Positions 5,298 through 12,379 of a stretch of 40,558 nt of DNA are shown here, one piece after another. The notes under the pieces are model-generated. The model did no database searches. It was given only the letters and a program-made list of their open reading frames with translations, and was not told the DNA's origin. The position numbers and the translations under genes are program-made. Numbering within the stretch: position 1 is the stretch's first letter; each line of letters opens with the position of its first letter. The DNA lies in contig CACWSW010000044.1 in the NCBI GenBank assembly GCA_902763655.1, forward strand, positions 1 to 40,558, read 5' to 3'. This DNA comes from an uncultured bacterium (lineage in GTDB: Bacteria; Verrucomicrobiota; Kiritimatiellia; RFP12; UBA1067).

Positions 5298-8200
5298 ATG
5301 CAACCGAACGCATTTGGGACAATCGGGGGAATCCTGCGCCTTCTTGCCGCGGGACTGCTCCTGTGCGGACTCGCCGCCCGCGCCGAGACCTTCTACGCCA
5401 ACGGCGGCGGCACGAAGACCACCTACGGCTACGACTGGTACAACAAGGACAACTGGCAGGTGATGGATGCGGCGAGCAACCTTGTGGCTGCCTCCAGCGC
5501 CCCGCAGCAGGGCGACACCGTCATCTTCAACAAGTCGATCACCTGGATGTCCCTCCTCCCCGACAGTTCCGTCGCGCCCGGCCTGCAGAGGGTGCAGTTC
5601 AACGTGGCCAACACCATCCACCAGGGATACGTGAGCCTGCTCGCGGGCGGCGACGGCCTCGTCATGAACTGCACAGGCACGATGACCTGGTGGGCGGGAC
5701 TCCACCTCACGGGCGACGGCGAGGTGCCGATCGTCGTCCCCTCCGGCGCCACCTTCAACAACCAGAAAGGCGTCCGCGTGGTCGGCAACCCGATCCTCGT
5801 GAAGCAGGGCGCGGGGACATTCAACACCGCGAACGAGGGCGGCAACGAGTACAGCGCCAAAAAGACGCTCCTCCAGGGCGGAACGATCATCATGCGCGCG
5901 TCAAACACCGCAACGGGACACGAGTTCGTGTTCGACTCGAACGAGCCCGACCTGCGCCTGCGGTTCACCACGGCGAAGAACAACCCCCGCGACTGGACGA
6001 TCCAGAACGGCTCCTTCACCGAATGCGCCGAGGTCGACAACACCACGCATGGCCTCTCAAGCGATGCCGCCAACGGCCGCCTCTACTACCTGCGTCTCAC
6101 CGGCACGCCGAAGCTCGCCGAGCAGCGGTTCACGGGCCAGCTGTACGACACGGCGGGCATCGCGTTCCTGCCGGGCGCGAAGCAGGCGGGCGGCGACGAC
6201 TACGTGTTCACCTTCGCCAAGGCCGTCTCCGCGGCGGGCGGCGGCATCGCCGTGACGAACGGCACCGTGCGCCTCGCGGAGGGCGCGTCCTTCACCTACC
6301 TCCAGCGCCTGGACGTGGGCGCGACGGGCACCTTCAAGGTGGAGAGCGGCAGCGGCGCGAGATTCGTGTGCGCGAACCTGGACGTCGCCGCGGGCGGCAA
6401 GCTGGACATCGCCGCGGGCGTGAACCTCTCGTTCATGCAGGGCCGGGCGGGCGGCCAGACGCTCGCGACAGGAACCTACACCGCCACGGGCGCGAACGGT
6501 TCAACGGCGGCGGACTGGATCACGGGCGACGGGCAGGTGACCGTGGACCGCGCGCCGGCCATCGACCCGATCGTCCTCACCGTGGACGCGGGCACGTCCT
6601 ACCTGCCCGAGGCCCTTGCGGCGTACAACCTGGAGACGGGCGAGAACGTGACGTTCGCCTCGCTCAACGGCGGCGACGACAAGGCCCGCACGCTCGTGAA
6701 GCGCGGCGCGGGACAGCTGAGCCTCACGAACGCGATGGCATCCTACGAGGGCACGATCCGCGTGGAAGGCGGCGTTCTCTTCTCAAACGCCCAGAATGCG
6801 CTGGGCAAGACGCCCAACGACGAGCATCCCATCGCCGTCTTTCCGAACGCGCAGTACAGATGCGAGGCCAAGGCCAACAACCACAACGCAAACCGCATCT
6901 TCCGCATCCAGGGGCGCGGTCCCGACGGCACGGGCGCCCTGCACATCAACAACAAGACTGGCGGCAACAGCGGCGTGGGCCAAATCTACGGTCTTACCGG
7001 CATGGCCGGCAAGATGATCTACCTGGACGACGACGCGGCCGTCGGCGGCAACATCTGGATCTCCTATCCGTCCGTCAACCTCAACGGCCACGATCTCACG
7101 TTCGTCAGCACAAACCCCGAGAACACGTTCAACGTCGGCAACTTCATCGGCGACGGCAATATCTACGTCACGAACGCCGCCTTCCGCGTGGGAAGCAGCA
7201 TCGAATTCCTTAAGGCCACCGCCCCCCACACGCTCCACATCGGCAAGAACGCCCAGTTCCGCTTCGTGACCTCCGCGCTCGGCGGCGCGGCGCTGGACAA
7301 GTGGAGCGTCGAGTTCGCGGCCGACTGCAGCGACCTCTTCGGCGACTGGGGCTTCAACCGCCGCAACGAGACGCTCGACACGTTCAGCATTCCCGTGACG
7401 CTGAACAAGATGATCCATCTGCACGGGCAGATCGACCGCTGGTACGCCCACGTGCGCTTCACCTCGACCGTGACGGGCACCGGCGGCTTCGTGACCGCCA
7501 AAGACTACGGCAACAGGCGCCATTCCGGATGGCTCCACCTGAACAACCCCGCCAACTCCTTCACGGGCGGCTTCGAGTTCGACCGCGGCGTCATCTGGTC
7601 CTACTGCAACGGCGCGATCCCGGCCGACGGCGGCCCGGTGAAGCTCATGCGCAAGACCGCCACGGACACGGAGCGCTGCGTGTACGACGGCGTGGCGTTC
7701 CCCGCGCCGAACGAGGTTTACGCGCTGCCGGAGCTGCAGGTGAGCGGCACGCAGACCGCCCGCGTTCAGTGCGGCGAGGGCACGTGGAAGAAGATCGTGA
7801 AGGAAGGCGCGAACACGCTGGAATACTATTCGGAGGTGGGCGCGCCGCGCGTGGAGGTGAAGGCGGGCACGCTCAAGTTGCCGCGCGGCGCGGCGCCCGG
7901 CCTGTGGGAGGGCATCGCCACCTATTCGAGCGCCGCCAACGCCCAGAACGCCTTCAACGGCTCCGCCACGCCCACGAACTACGTCGTGCGCGGGCCGTAC
8001 ATGGCCAACGTCCGCGAGAAGGACAACGTGGCCGCCTGGTCGAGGAACAGCCTCGTCACCTACACGGGCTACATCTGGAACCGCACGGGCGCGCCCGTCA
8101 CGTGGACGCTCGCGAGCTCGGTCAAGGATCCGGTGACGGTGACCATCGACGGTTCCATCGTCCTTTCCGGCGGCGCCGCCGCGCTCGCCTCCGCCGACGT

Positions 8201-8843
8201 CACGCTCACGCCCGGCCCGCACGCGTTCGAGTGGCGCGCCTGGAACGGAGACGACGACACCACGGGACCGCACAAGCCGACGAACTGGGCAGACAACTTC
8301 GGCTTCGTCTACGACCCGCAGGGACGCGGCGACGTCTCCACGACGAACAACTTCGTCCTTGCCACGGACAACGGCGACGGCGCGCTCTTCACGCGCTACA
8401 CGAATGCCACCGCGCGCCTGCCCGCGTTCGGCACGCTGGCGTTCGATACGGGCACGACGCTCGACCTGAACGGCAACGCCTACGCGGCGAACGAGATCAT
8501 GGGCTGGCCCGTCGTGACGAACACGTGCACGGACGCCACGTCCGCCGCCGCGCTCACGATCACGAACTCGTTCACGATCGACGGCGCCGCCCTCGCGACC
8601 GGGCGTCAGCTCGTCTCGTCCGTGCCCGTCACCTTCGCGCCGGGCGCCACGGTCACGCTCACCAACTCGGCCCTGATCGCCCGCAACGGTCGGAAATCCT
8701 TCCCCGTCCTCACGGCCGCGACGCTGAACTGGAACGGGGCGAAGCTGAAGCAAGACGACAGGGGATGGATCGTCCGGCTCGACGGCGACGGAAAGACTCT
8801 CATCTTAGAGTACTGCGCGGGCACCACGTTCATCCTACGCTAG
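5298..8843 (+). CDS. Large secreted beta-strand-repeat surface protein with Ile-Leu-Arg end
   Basis: This is a 1181-residue exported protein. I chose the ATG at 5298 because a GGAAAGG site lies about ten bases before it and a clean signal peptide follows (LLAAGLLLCGLAARA, cleavage before ETFYANG). The upstream in-frame ATG at 5211 overlaps the promoter. The body is Gly/Thr/Asn-rich beta sequence. Around residues 466-500 it has the pattern of an autotransporter-associated beta-strand repeat: G-A-G-x-L-S-L-T-N, then Y-E-G-T-I-R-V-E-G-G-V-L. Around residues 890-1030 is a PA14-like segment. It ends GWIVRLDGDGKTLILEY then CAGTTFILR at the stop, matching the tail signature of the other surface proteins here. 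No outer-membrane barrel is visible, so it is not a classical autotransporter. A surface glycan-binding or adhesive role is inferred. Confidence 0.85.
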   Translation: MQPNAFGTIGGILRLLAAGLLLCGLAARAETFYANGGGTKTTYGYDWYNKDNWQVMDAASNLVAASSAPQQGDTVIFNKSITWMSLLPDSSVAPGLQRVQFNVANTIHQGYVSLLAGGDGLVMNCTGTMTWWAGLHLTGDGEVPIVVPSGATFNNQKGVRVVGNPILVKQGAGTFNTANEGGNEYSAKKTLLQGGTIIMRASNTATGHEFVFDSNEPDLRLRFTTAKNNPRDWTIQNGSFTECAEVDNTTHGLSSDAANGRLYYLRLTGTPKLAEQRFTGQLYDTAGIAFLPGAKQAGGDDYVFTFAKAVSAAGGGIAVTNGTVRLAEGASFTYLQRLDVGATGTFKVESGSGARFVCANLDVAAGGKLDIAAGVNLSFMQGRAGGQTLATGTYTATGANGSTAADWITGDGQVTVDRAPAIDPIVLTVDAGTSYLPEALAAYNLETGENVTFASLNGGDDKARTLVKRGAGQLSLTNAMASYEGTIRVEGGVLFSNAQNALGKTPNDEHPIAVFPNAQYRCEAKANNHNANRIFRIQGRGPDGTGALHINNKTGGNSGVGQIYGLTGMAGKMIYLDDDAAVGGNIWISYPSVNLNGHDLTFVSTNPENTFNVGNFIGDGNIYVTNAAFRVGSSIEFLKATAPHTLHIGKNAQFRFVTSALGGAALDKWSVEFAADCSDLFGDWGFNRRNETLDTFSIPVTLNKMIHLHGQIDRWYAHVRFTSTVTGTGGFVTAKDYGNRRHSGWLHLNNPANSFTGGFEFDRGVIWSYCNGAIPADGGPVKLMRKTATDTERCVYDGVAFPAPNEVYALPELQVSGTQTARVQCGEGTWKKIVKEGANTLEYYSEVGAPRVEVKAGTLKLPRGAAPGLWEGIATYSSAANAQNAFNGSATPTNYVVRGPYMANVREKDNVAAWSRNSLVTYTGYIWNRTGAPVTWTLASSVKDPVTVTIDGSIVLSGGAAALASADVTLTPGPHAFEWRAWNGDDDTTGPHKPTNWADNFGFVYDPQGRGDVSTTNNFVLATDNGDGALFTRYTNATARLPAFGTLAFDTGTTLDLNGNAYAANEIMGWPVVTNTCTDATSAAALTITNSFTIDGAALATGRQLVSSVPVTFAPGATVTLTNSALIARNGRKSFPVLTAATLNWNGAKLKQDDRGWIVRLDGDGKTLILEYCAGTTFILR

Positions 8844-8892
8844 CGCGGCGTGGCCTTGCCGTAGTCGACAGAGAACGTGCCGAACGCGGCAA

Positions 8893-9115
8893 CCGCCGCA
8901 TGGAAGGCGGCTTTCCCAGTTAGACCGCCGCCTGGAAGGCGGCTCCCCATTCGGGAGGGTCGCAATTTATTGCGACCGCAATTTCGGGCGCAACAAGTTG
9001 CGCCCCTCCCGTGGTAGGGCCGCCGTTCCATCGGCGGCCGCGCAGCAGCGCGGCCCTCCCGTGCGGTCGCAGTAAACTGCGACCCTCCCGCATGGGGAGC
9101 CGCCATCTTGGCGGC
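8893..9115. repeat. Array of nested palindromes between two convergent surface-protein genes
   Basis: Nearly the whole gap between two convergent stop codons folds on itself. Hairpins are: CCGCC/GGCGG 8893-8910; GCCGCC/GGCGGC 8927-8943; GGTCGCAAT-TT-ATTGCGACC 8958-8977; GGGCGCAAC-AA-GTTGCGCCC 8986-9005; GGCCGCCG-TTCCAT-CGGCGGCC 9018-9039; GCCGCGC/GCGCGGC 9037-9054; GGTCGCAGT-AA-ACTGCGACC 9065-9084; GCCGCCA-TCT-TGGCGGC 9099-9115. CCTCCCG spacers recur between them. The 40 bases at 8938-8977 are also the inverse complement of 9065-9104 with only three differences. Two of these are a compensating pair within the hairpin stem (A-T against G-C). It could act as a two-way terminator or be a REP-like element cluster. 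No transposase lies nearby. Confidence 0.9.
9013..9060. repeat. Copy A of the GGTAGGGC...TTCCAT...GGCCCT palindromic element
   Basis: This part of the array matches 24497-24542. Both begin GGTAGGGC, carry TTCCAT as the loop of the first hairpin, continue GCCGCG and close with GGCCCT. AGGGCCG near the start pairs with CGGCCCT near the end, giving a cloverleaf-like outer stem. Between the two copies, the stem pair at positions 9 and 24 changes from C-G to T-A, which keeps the pairing. Confidence 0.8.
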
Positions 9116-9136
9116 GCGGCCCTCCCAGGCGCCCGG

Positions 9137-12100
9137 TCAGCGGAAGATGACCTGGAAGCCAACGCCCTTGACCTGGATGGCGCCCGCGCCGGAGATGTGC
9201 CCGGGCAGGTTCGCCGCCGTATAGTGGCCGGAGAGCCGCCTTTCGCCGATCCAGCCCTCGGCGAACTTCTGCGTCATACCGGCGGGAATTTCGATCTTGC
9301 CGCTGTCCGCGAAGCGGATGACCGCGTGCTGCGGGTTGAACGTGTTCGCGGAGGTCAGCTTCAGCGTGCCGCACCCGGTCACATTCACGTTCGTGCCGTT
9401 GAGCCAGCTCGCGCCGTCGGTGAACGTGAGCGTGCCGTCGGAGACGGTGATGTCGCCGTACGACGCGAACGCGCGGCTCCTCAGCCGCTGCCAGCCGGAA
9501 CCGGACATCTCGATGGAGACGCGTCCCGAGAGGACGGACGTCAGGTTGGTGCTTGCGGTCGCGGCCTCGTTCAGGACGCCCTGCATGATCTCGAGGCAGC
9601 CGTCGCCCTCGATGGTCCCGGCGTTGTTCGACGAGTAGATGACCAGCCAGCGCTGGTGCGTGCCGTTCAGGCGCATCACGCCGTTCGCGGCGTTCATGTG
9701 CACGAGCGTGTCGTCGAAGGCGTCGTCCACGTGGAACTCGGCGACAAGCCCGGAATTGAGTCTGTACACCATCGCGGCCCTGTTCCCCGTGGTCTTGAAC
9801 ACGTGCTTTCCGTTGCTGCCGTTGACCTCGCGGTCCTTCCGAACCTGCACCATCGGCCCCTCGAACACGTAGGTGGCGTTGTGCGCCCCAAAGCCCGCGC
9901 CGCTGGTCATCGCATCCCTGTAGCCTTTCTCGAACACGACGGTCGCCGACACGCCCTCTCCGCTCAACGCCGTGGACGGCGTTTGCGTCACGACTTCCTT
10001 GAACACGTTCGTGGTGTTCGCTGCGGCGATGAAAAAGGTCGTAACGCCCGTCGCGCCGGCCATCTGCCCGCGTCCCTCCAGCGACACCGGCTTCCAGCAC
10101 GTCACGCCCTCGAAGCGCGTCACGCCCGTCTCGCACCAGCCGTCGTTGATGTTGCTGTTGTTGCGGTAGTCCCCGTAGCGGATCGTCAGCGGCTCGACGT
10201 CGCCCGGATTGCCGATCTGCCCCTTGAGGACGAGCGTGCCGCCTCCGGTGGTGTGCGTGATCGGACCCGACACGCGCGGATTCACCAGCTTGAGGACGCC
10301 GTTCGTCGAATAGTCCCACGCGAGGCCGCTCAGCTTCGTCCCCTTCAGCTCGATGCCGCACGTCGGGTCGCCGTCGATCCCGCCCGAGAACACGACCTCC
10401 GCGCCGTCCGCCGGCATCGTGATCGTCTGGCTGTCGCGGAGGAGGACGGGCGCGGCGACCTCGTAGCGCGGCATCGCGCCCAGTCCGGGATCGTCCACGC
10501 TCACGTTGCCGTACAGCTGGAGCGTGTCGTTGCCCGAAAGCGTGAACGCGGACACGCCGCCGAAGCCGAGCCCCAGGACGTTGCAGGTCGCCCCCGTGTC
10601 CAGGACGGCCGAAGCCGTCGCGGCCGTCGGCGAGGCGAAGATCGGCCGGCAGGTGGCCGTGGAGAAGTCCGGCGCGACGTCCCAGTTGCCCGCGGCCGAC
10701 GCGCTGGTCGAGGTCGCCCCGGTCCACGTCACGTCCGTCGGCGCGACGGACGGGCTCAACAGCACCTTCACGGAACCATACGGCAGCCAGGCGTTGTCGG
10801 CCGCCGCATAGACGCCGGGCGCGAGATACGCGCCGCCGACAGAGAGAGTCTTCACCGTGAGCGTGCGCCCGTCCGAACCCAGGTCAAGCACGGCCTCCGA
10901 TCCGAGAACCGGCTCGAAGCCACCCTGGTCGATGGCCGCGTCCGTCCCGGCGAACGTGAGGCAGCCGCGCACGTCGACCTTCCCGTAGATCGGCACCCCC
11001 GACGCCACGACGATGTTCGTGAACGCGCTCGGCGCCCCCGAGAAGAACACGCGGCCTCCGTTGACGGACAGCGACTCGGCGGACGACCCGCGCACCGAGA
11101 GCGTCCCGGCGCCTTCCTTCTCAACGGCCACGTTCGCGGTGCAGCGCGCGTTGAGCGTGGCGTTCACGTCCTGCGCGCCCAGCACGAGCGTGCCCGTGGC
11201 GGACGCGGTGTTCGTGACGATGCCGATGTTGGAACCCGTCCCCGTACTGGTGACGCTGTTCAGGTGCTGGCGCCGGCCGTACAGGTCCAGGCAGCAGTGG
11301 TGCTGGTTCTGGTTCGCGTTCCCCTCCGCGTAGCCCGCGTACCCGTTGTACTCCACCACCATGCCGCCGACGCCCGGCCCGTACGGCAGGACGTCGTCCG
11401 ACTCCGTGCGCAGCCACATGTTGCCCGTCAGGTGGATGTCGCCCGTGATCTCCCAGACGATGTTGTCCGAACGCATCAGCCTCCACGGACGGAAGTTCCA
11501 GCCGTTGCCCCACTGCGGAATGGCCCCCTCGTTGTGCAGCCGCACGTCGGTGCCGCGCATCCGCACCGTTCCGCCCAGCTGGCCGCTCATCTTGGCTTCG
11601 GCAAACTGCTTGCGCAGGCTGATCGGGTTGCCGTTGACGCCCTGGCAGATGATCTCGTGCCCCGTTTCGGGACTCAACGACGTGCCGTGGTCGCAGACGT
11701 TGTTGCGGAAGAGCACGCCGCCGTTGAAGAGGATGCGCGCCGGATAGGGGCTTTTGTTGTAGATGCAGGCGATGTCGGCATACGCGCCGGACTTGATCTC
11801 CAGAAAGTCGATCATGCCGGGCGCGTTCGTGGCGACGGAGCTTTCCACGAACAGCCACTCCGCCCAGAACGTGCCGAACACGTTGGCTCCGAAACCGGTG
11901 TCCTTCGTATAGTCCTCCACCACGAGCTTGGCGCGTCCGGTGGAGCCAGGCTCGCCCCCGGCGGTTCCGAGACGCACGCGCACGCGGGACGGTGCGGCCG
12001 CCCGGTCGCCGGGCGGGTCGATGCCGAGCGCCGTCCATTTCGCCGGCCCGTCCGAGTTCCTGTACGTGGTCGCGAACAGCGAATACCCCTTCACCGTGAC

Positions 12101-12379
12101 CGTCACGTCGTTCGCGTTCGTCGCGATGTAGAACTGCGGGTTGGTGTCGACGGAGGGCGTTCCGACGCCCGTCTGGTTCGCGCCCATGAAGCGCACGTAC
12201 GACCGCCCCTGCAGCGTGAAGTCGGCGAGGATCGACCCCACGTTCACGGGCGCGGTGTAGACGTTCGTCACGCCCGACCAGACGGTCGGCGACGTGATGA
12301 CCATCGACTCGTTCGTAACGACGCCGTATCCGGCCGCCGCCAAGGCCGCGCACACCATGCCAATCACGCGTTTCTTCAT
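9137..12379 (-). CDS. Large secreted beta-helix-like surface protein with Ile-Phe-Arg end
   Basis: This is a 1080-residue exported protein. The start at 12379 has AAAGGAG about eight bases upstream and gives a standard signal peptide (MKKRVIGMVCAALAAAGYG). The body is repetitive beta sequence rich in Gly, Thr, Asn and Val. It has passenger-type motifs such as KEGAGTLSVRGSSAESLSVN near residue 420 and repeated G-T-L-x-L strands towards the C-terminus. The protein ends SGAGAIQVKGVGFQVIFR at the stop, sharing the terminal Ile-Phe-Arg with its neighbours. No enzyme motif or membrane barrel is seen. It converges with the 1181-residue surface gene, the hairpin array filling the gap. Its own promoter lies just upstream, so it need not be co-transcribed with GH26. 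Surface adhesion or glycan binding is inferred. Confidence 0.85.
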   Translation of the reverse strand: MKKRVIGMVCAALAAAGYGVVTNESMVITSPTVWSGVTNVYTAPVNVGSILADFTLQGRSYVRFMGANQTGVGTPSVDTNPQFYIATNANDVTVTVKGYSLFATTYRNSDGPAKWTALGIDPPGDRAAAPSRVRVRLGTAGGEPGSTGRAKLVVEDYTKDTGFGANVFGTFWAEWLFVESSVATNAPGMIDFLEIKSGAYADIACIYNKSPYPARILFNGGVLFRNNVCDHGTSLSPETGHEIICQGVNGNPISLRKQFAEAKMSGQLGGTVRMRGTDVRLHNEGAIPQWGNGWNFRPWRLMRSDNIVWEITGDIHLTGNMWLRTESDDVLPYGPGVGGMVVEYNGYAGYAEGNANQNQHHCCLDLYGRRQHLNSVTSTGTGSNIGIVTNTASATGTLVLGAQDVNATLNARCTANVAVEKEGAGTLSVRGSSAESLSVNGGRVFFSGAPSAFTNIVVASGVPIYGKVDVRGCLTFAGTDAAIDQGGFEPVLGSEAVLDLGSDGRTLTVKTLSVGGAYLAPGVYAAADNAWLPYGSVKVLLSPSVAPTDVTWTGATSTSASAAGNWDVAPDFSTATCRPIFASPTAATASAVLDTGATCNVLGLGFGGVSAFTLSGNDTLQLYGNVSVDDPGLGAMPRYEVAAPVLLRDSQTITMPADGAEVVFSGGIDGDPTCGIELKGTKLSGLAWDYSTNGVLKLVNPRVSGPITHTTGGGTLVLKGQIGNPGDVEPLTIRYGDYRNNSNINDGWCETGVTRFEGVTCWKPVSLEGRGQMAGATGVTTFFIAAANTTNVFKEVVTQTPSTALSGEGVSATVVFEKGYRDAMTSGAGFGAHNATYVFEGPMVQVRKDREVNGSNGKHVFKTTGNRAAMVYRLNSGLVAEFHVDDAFDDTLVHMNAANGVMRLNGTHQRWLVIYSSNNAGTIEGDGCLEIMQGVLNEAATASTNLTSVLSGRVSIEMSGSGWQRLRSRAFASYGDITVSDGTLTFTDGASWLNGTNVNVTGCGTLKLTSANTFNPQHAVIRFADSGKIEIPAGMTQKFAEGWIGERRLSGHYTAANLPGHISGAGAIQVKGVGFQVIFR

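Follow-up and report, generated by a model that had tools for sequence, protein, structure and literature searches.

REPs are high-copy, dispersed short palindromes that are usually described as extragenic. In the systems that have been studied, the RAYT transposase (TnpAREP) binds single-stranded REP DNA in its folded form, the tag has been implicated through A3G4 in the choice of the CT cleavage site, and a stem mismatch in S. maltophilia leaves cleavage impaired or nearly abolished (PMC8266576). Intragenic REPs are already known in Opitutus and Rickettsia, and CGTC repeats, including RPE-4 and RPE-6, apparently have no dedicated transposase (PMC3733652). Alternative complementary stem bases inside REP families have also been reported previously (PMC3733652), and covariation as such is not new.

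Here we examined a hairpin array in a 40,558-nucleotide stretch of an uncultured gut bacterium (the window), which is contig C44 of a 4.5-Mb assembly of 465 contigs (G000, the own genome below). The array is an intergenic mosaic, a BIME-like cluster of several REP-like families, each with a directional tag and a hairpin. Taking the evidence together, we consider it very probable that these are mobile palindromes of the REP type, whose inverted doublet is probably the replicating form and would be processed, folded as single-stranded DNA, by the RAYT Y1 transposase of contig C163.

Layout of the array and its palindrome families

Eight hairpins were present at positions 8893-9115, where the preliminary description had placed them, and the three perfect 9-2-9 stems reported there lie at 8958-8977, 8986-9005 and 9065-9084. 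These 223 bases hold four non-overlapping perfect stems of at least 8 bp; in 1000 mononucleotide shuffles the mean was 0.047 and the maximum 1. The fold energy corresponded to z = -11.8 against dinucleotide shuffles. The motif CCTCCCG does recur as described, but its reading as a spacer could not be kept, as its reverse complement contains CGGGAG, a directional tag. The (C)GGGAG tag flanks the hairpins of the main family on one side only, and the loops are oriented in accordance with it.

The main family, F1, consists of the tag GGGAG and a 20-nt hairpin, with two subtypes whose inner stem starts with A (A-type) or with G (B-type). At the left end of the array, a degenerate F2-like palindrome (8893-8918, minus strand; CCGCC-8 nt-GGCGG, with TGGGAAA as minus-strand tag) is a direct repeat of the F2 unit at 8927-8948 (minus strand; tag GGGGA and GCCGCC-TTCCA-GGCGGC). 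The centre is occupied by a 60-bp head-to-head doublet with REPIN architecture, CGGGAG-hairpin-8 nt-hairpin-CTCCCG (8952-9011). It comprises an F1 A-type unit at 8953-8977 (plus strand; GGGAG and GGTCGCAATTTATTGCGACC), an 8-nt linker at 8978-8985 (GCAATTTC, or GAAATTGC on the minus strand, with a consensus near GAAATGGC) and an F1 A-type unit at 8986-9010 (minus strand; GGGAG and GGGCGCAACTTGTTGCGCCC). To its right are a GTAG-tagged F3 unit at 9013-9039 (plus strand; GGTAG and GGCCGCCG-TTCCAT-CGGCGGCC), whose family RAYT is found at G000:C45 (L212), and an F1 B-type unit at 9036-9060 (minus strand; GGGAG and GGCCGCGCTGCTGCGCGGCC), GGCC being common to the two. A further F1 A-type unit lies at 9065-9089 (minus strand; GGGAG and GGTCGCAGTTTACTGCGACC), followed by an F2 unit at 9094-9115 (plus strand; tag GGGGA and GCCGCC-ATCTT-GGCGGC). 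Directly beyond, 9116-9126 (minus strand) reads GCGGCCCTCCC, likely the remnant of a truncated F1 unit, and forms a direct repeat (D2) with the end of the F1 B-type unit.

Hundreds of further copies were found in the genome. Exact tagged F1 copies number about 350 (209 A-type and 142 B-type), so that F1 is a high-copy dispersed short palindrome, and the untagged core GGTCGCA..TGCGACC occurs in 127 exact copies, the control with the reversed pattern giving 0. These copy numbers are likely underestimates because the repeats probably break the assembly at arrays. The 8-nt linker is found in 12 of the 17 intergenic head-to-head doublets in the sampled part of the own genome, laid out as at the array centre, and 60 bp is the typical form; an inverted REP doublet with a spacer, as in REPINs, is thus a common unit. 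Concerning the tags, F2 (GGGGA and GCCGCC...) can also be read as GGAG and CCGCC.... F1 and F2 carry GGAG in place of the GTAG tetranucleotide of the GTAG-REP superfamily; F3 does carry GTAG. Because of this GGAG tag we filed F1 as a RAYT-associated REP and not as a GTAG REP.

Among members of the genus, the A-type and B-type counts range from 0/2 (G010) up to 67/443 (G006), and elsewhere in the family and order most genera have few F1 copies or none. A patchy distribution is typical of mobile DNA, and the F1 palindromes are probably mobile DNA. Several arrays were also observed at contig ends (G000:C261:4-79, C354:21-96 and C9:185-204), and in another genus of the same family B-type units form tandem ladders with spacings of about 97 and 120 bp (G031:C5:25-437 and G031:C8:3469-3972).

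Stem covariation and the RAYT genes

Within the array, changes at stem positions 3, 8 and 9 had been described as matched on the opposite arm, and this holds genome-wide. Among 98 unique A-type copies from the own genome, Watson-Crick pairs were formed at pair 3 in 87, at pair 8 in 97 and at pair 9 in 97, where independent arms would give 40, 63 and 48, respectively. For 48 distinct A-type and B-type sequences from the own genome and relatives the covariation score was 0.402; the shuffled mean was 0.141, with 0 of 500 shuffles reaching 0.402, and slid partners gave at most 0.177. All four bases occur at stem position 3, each with its complement. The 84 perfectly paired A-type copies display 9 different combinations of positions 3, 8 and 9, and the variants therefore amount to more than a couple or a trio of clonal subfamilies. 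Further copies and covariation, whose absence would have spoken against the preliminary description, are both present.

It had also been proposed to look for a RAYT gene elsewhere in the genome, and two were found, each with its own REP family. The own genome was searched with profiles built from REP-flanked RAYTs of relatives; alignment A1 (MPNHVH type) led to the gene on C45 and missed the F1 RAYT, and alignment A2 led to the gene on C163. The latter, the cognate RAYT of F1, lies at G000:C163:8307-8891 and is of the MPDHIHFF type (L037:1093-1842). Of its F1 doublets, one lies at the 5' end of the frame, three of 60 bp follow the gene in tandem, and two are internal and in frame, GGSQFIATETADATSCVPP and GGSQLAATATRGAATTDARQRVPP. 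The F3 RAYT at G000:C45:3269 is of the MPDHLHF type, and F3 units both flank it and lie within it. Each of the two genes thus stands beside copies of its own family. No cognate RAYT was found for F2, which is a point against the RAYT explanation, as are the F1 and F2 tag, GGAG instead of GTAG, and the situation in G031, where the REP type at the RAYT is A and the commonest type of the genome is B.

When typed with the REP inserts left out, RAYT cores matched the NCBIfam family NF047646 (REP_Tyr_transpos) in 6 of 6 cases and PDB 4er8 (TnpAREP) at 4.6e-15. The C163 RAYT carries an HIH motif and belongs with the RAYTs (TnpAREP) by its HUH motif, its Y1-transposase fold family and NF047646. A Pfam search of the native C163 protein gave no match, presumably because the domain is split. 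Being itself split by REPs, the gene may not be active, yet the frame is open and the core conserved: between G000 and G006 the core shows a dN of 0.041 and a dS of 0.334, values consistent with purifying selection. The copy in G003 has diverged further (dS 0.92) and may not be a strict orthologue of the G000 RAYT. The closest named relatives of one RAYT protein of the own genome come from rumen and gut MAGs, some of them labelled Kiritimatiellae, which makes this the probable taxon of the genome.

The sole Pfam Y1_Tnp match of the genome, L059 (G000:C278), was considered as the F1 source and rejected; it has TIRs and no directly adjoining F1 units, and looks like a TIR-type gene, not an F1 partner. 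This second type of transposase (L059:1429-2532, L070 and L074) is about 360 aa long, contains NHFHLLV and has long terminal inverted repeats around AAAACAGGTCTGACC. We also noticed whole RAYT domains with REPs lying in frame within other genes, each as one long open frame: L056:172-2562 (G001:C409), L094:1959-4148 (G003:C24), L088:2205-4442 (G003:C98), L208 (G022:C39) and L114:1947-5657 (G018:C160). The hosts, named by eye from sequence motifs, are an HsdR-like protein and, in two species each, a GlpB-like FAD protein and the glucuronate isomerase UxaC. Further RAYT-REP pairs were seen in sister species, namely L226 (G003:C126), L222 (G006:C178), L213 (G005:C614), L047, L048, L050 and L104, with differing palindromes and encoded peptides (GHAGRVTLP, GEGERPREP, AARVDARPP and others). 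Judging from these genomes, many REP systems coexist within one genus.

Based on sequence comparison, F1 is most likely mobilised by its RAYT. The replicating form would probably be the inverted doublet (REPIN), on which the cognate RAYT from contig C163 would act while it is folded as single-stranded DNA. A copy would be recognised only if it has both the tag and a paired stem; the GGAG tag retains A3G4. Unpaired stems would thereby be filtered from the spreading copies, with the identity of pairs 3, 8 and 9 left free, in agreement with the observed pattern, and compensated variants would arise because RAYT recognition leaves open which bases form some of the stem pairs, provided that pairing holds. 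The preliminary description had offered selection on structure or a copying mechanism; we favour recognition of single-stranded DNA by the transposase, together with replacement of whole hairpins in place, over selection on RNA.

Copies inside genes and differences at the same site

With genes called by a simple codon-usage gene finder, and hence approximately, 35 of 54 F1 units in 837 kb of the own genome lie inside predicted genes. Over all sampled loci, a set in which arrays are over-represented, 57 of 124 units lie within genes, or roughly half. Regardless of orientation, 50 of these 57 are in one reading phase (binomial p ~2e-9 even against one half). Same-strand units, as read from their sequence, contain no stop in any phase, and stop avoidance alone therefore does not explain the frame bias. 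In all 12 intragenic head-to-head doublets the linker is 2, 5, 8, 11, 14, 20 or 26 nt long, always 2 modulo 3.

Among the host genes are those for ManA, PurF, a PFL-family glycyl radical enzyme, an MFS sugar transporter, PfkB and GH20. As in Rickettsia RPEs, these are in-frame insertions in genes for functional proteins. For ManA and PurF, the two hosts checked in detail, insert-free orthologues exist in the same genus, and a dN/dS of about 0.12 outside the inserts between G000 and G003 indicates purifying selection on the hosts. With about half of a RAYT-linked family genic in one frame, the same 25 bases are under constraint from protein function, from stem pairing and probably also from recognition by the transposase. 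Loops with REPs in G000 were also seen to hold other in-frame extra sequence in relatives, some resembling other repeats (L138:9090, and the PurF loop in G007, G011, G012, G021, G022 and G023).

We compared G000 with the sister species G003 at 28 orthologous sites identified by flank matching, a few of them weak matches. Identical units were found, as were five hairpins with single unpaired changes. Two sites in coding genes display compensated double changes: one in ManA at pair 9 of L133:4995, which also replaces L by F and A by T, and the other at pair 8 of L139:3274. Some sites have no unit in G003 (for example L130:5533), so both empty and filled orthologous sites exist. Whole-type switches with pairing intact were found at L007:1790, L130:505, L130:2122, L153, L006 and the RAYT locus. 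The PurF and ManA sites carry B-type units in G006 and A-type units in G000 and G003; the internal RAYT site carries B-type doublets in G006 and G003 and mostly A-type doublets in G000. In the RAYT gene, the spacer between the two internal doublets is common to G000 and G006 while the doublets differ. Such filled, empty and type-switched orthologous sites allow the spread of REPs and the survival of their stems to be studied directly.

The simplest reading of the type switches is that a resident hairpin is replaced in place. Cluster sites persist, and the hairpins at a fixed site appear to be swapped as a block for other copies, through recombination between copies or replacement driven by the transposase. 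We infer both the single-stranded intermediate and this manner of replacement. Going further, and only tentatively, we suggest a RAYT-REP lineage that could live largely within conserved enzymes, as peptide inserts (GGSQLxAT...DAINCVPP and variants) that are translated and locked in frame. It would be homogenised in place, its own transposase gene included, with one type overwriting another at fixed sites, and would spread by replacement of residents and not only by new insertion.

Perfect stems might instead be kept mainly by mutation, with template switching during replication (quasi-palindrome correction) producing paired changes as single events and RAYT having merely seeded the copies. 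Template switching is documented as maintaining hairpins (PMC8794818), unpaired intermediates are very few at pairs 8 and 9, and the two compensated double changes in coding genes speak for it; nevertheless, both states of these two cases exist elsewhere in the population, and copying from another element fits them as well. Single mismatches have stayed uncorrected in the five same-site hairpins and in 11 of 98 copies at pair 3. Moreover, the whole-type switches alter the loop and inner stem together, and sometimes the linker length, which arm-to-arm copying cannot do. We thus regard this explanation as unlikely, although correction of the arms by template switching possibly contributes to the paired changes.

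That the type differences reflect repeated independent insertions into one target, rather than replacement, seems quite unlikely. The edges of the units cannot distinguish the two, as every type has the same tags and outer stems, and the loops do tolerate inserts, several relatives having unrelated extra sequence at PurF and L138:9090. On the other hand, positions agree to the exact base at many unrelated loci, and the two RAYT-gene sites have differing doublets around a non-REP spacer that G000 and G006 have in common. The choice among transposase copying, gene conversion and template switching is a question for REPs and for hairpin evolution generally.

In the window, the array lies between two convergent genes, one for a large exported repeat protein with a weak PATR (autotransporter-type) match (5298-8843, plus strand) and one for a large exported protein (9137-12379, minus strand). 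The first has counterparts of 91-97% identity in G004 and G005, with another gene and no array after their 3' ends; the second has one of about 97% identity in G006, next to which just the right half of the array is present and the sequence further on differs. The array, absent or halved beside conserved neighbours, is therefore a marker of a synteny break and not a conserved terminator. Compared with G004, G005 and G006, the stretch 8840-9140 coincides with a breakpoint of synteny; such REP clusters may be substrates of rearrangement. A preference for convergent gene pairs is not claimed, as the loci are too few and the window itself dominates them.

The array had been judged far more than a terminator needs, and it is indeed a dispersed palindrome family with compensated stems; a lone terminator was rejected, as no terminator-like U-tract was found at its own hairpins, and so was a known structured RNA, the best Rfam match of the array reaching 48.8 bits against a gathering threshold of 268. 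With about half of the copies in coding sequence as well, the suggested role for RNA structure at 8893-9115 found no support. That the array is kept as a bidirectional terminator or RNA stabiliser is very unlikely, for although it follows directly on the two stop codons and has strong RNA structure, its hairpins lack a U-tract, the same units occur inside genes, and it has not been conserved together with the genes beside it. It may help to end transcription of these two genes, although no such role is needed, and as a side effect this would be compatible with the RAYT explanation.

Comparison with known systems

In searches of the open literature we found no description of such elements in Kiritimatiellota, and none of frame-locked REPs, of REPs within their own RAYT or of same-site switching. 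There is a close likeness to the REP/REPIN-RAYT systems of Pseudomonas, Stenotrophomonas and Escherichia (PMC3116915, PMC8266576), with which F1 shares palindromes that carry a tag, inverted doublets separated by a spacer, doublets in tandem next to the RAYT, a single REP group for each RAYT and a RAYT of the NF047646/4er8 family. The 60-bp doublet with its 8-nt linker fits the REPIN description (PMC3116915). Unlike in those systems, the main family here is tagged GGAG, about half of the copies are coding in one frame, and the RAYT holds its own REPs in frame.

The GTAG REPs of Verrucomicrobia (Opitutus terrae; PMC3733652) are similar in their occurrence in the PVC superphylum, in having several families per genome and intragenic copies, and in their head-to-head dimers and alternative complementary stem bases. 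However, the F1 and F2 tag lies beyond the listed GTAG variants, and neither frame lock nor same-site type switching is described in PMC3733652. Rickettsia palindromic elements are likewise small palindromes, inserted in frame into genes whose proteins are apparently functional, whereas the elements here are shorter tagged hairpins with a RAYT; the likeness is one of insertion habit, and no RPE membership is claimed. Like a BIME, the array groups REP units of alternating orientation between genes, but at least three tagged families are mixed here, and similar mosaics occur in coding regions too (ManA site C). REP, REPIN, RAYT and intragenic REPs were thus already known; new here are the GGAG tag, the frame-locked coding inserts, the transposase that carries its own REPs and the in-place switching of type.
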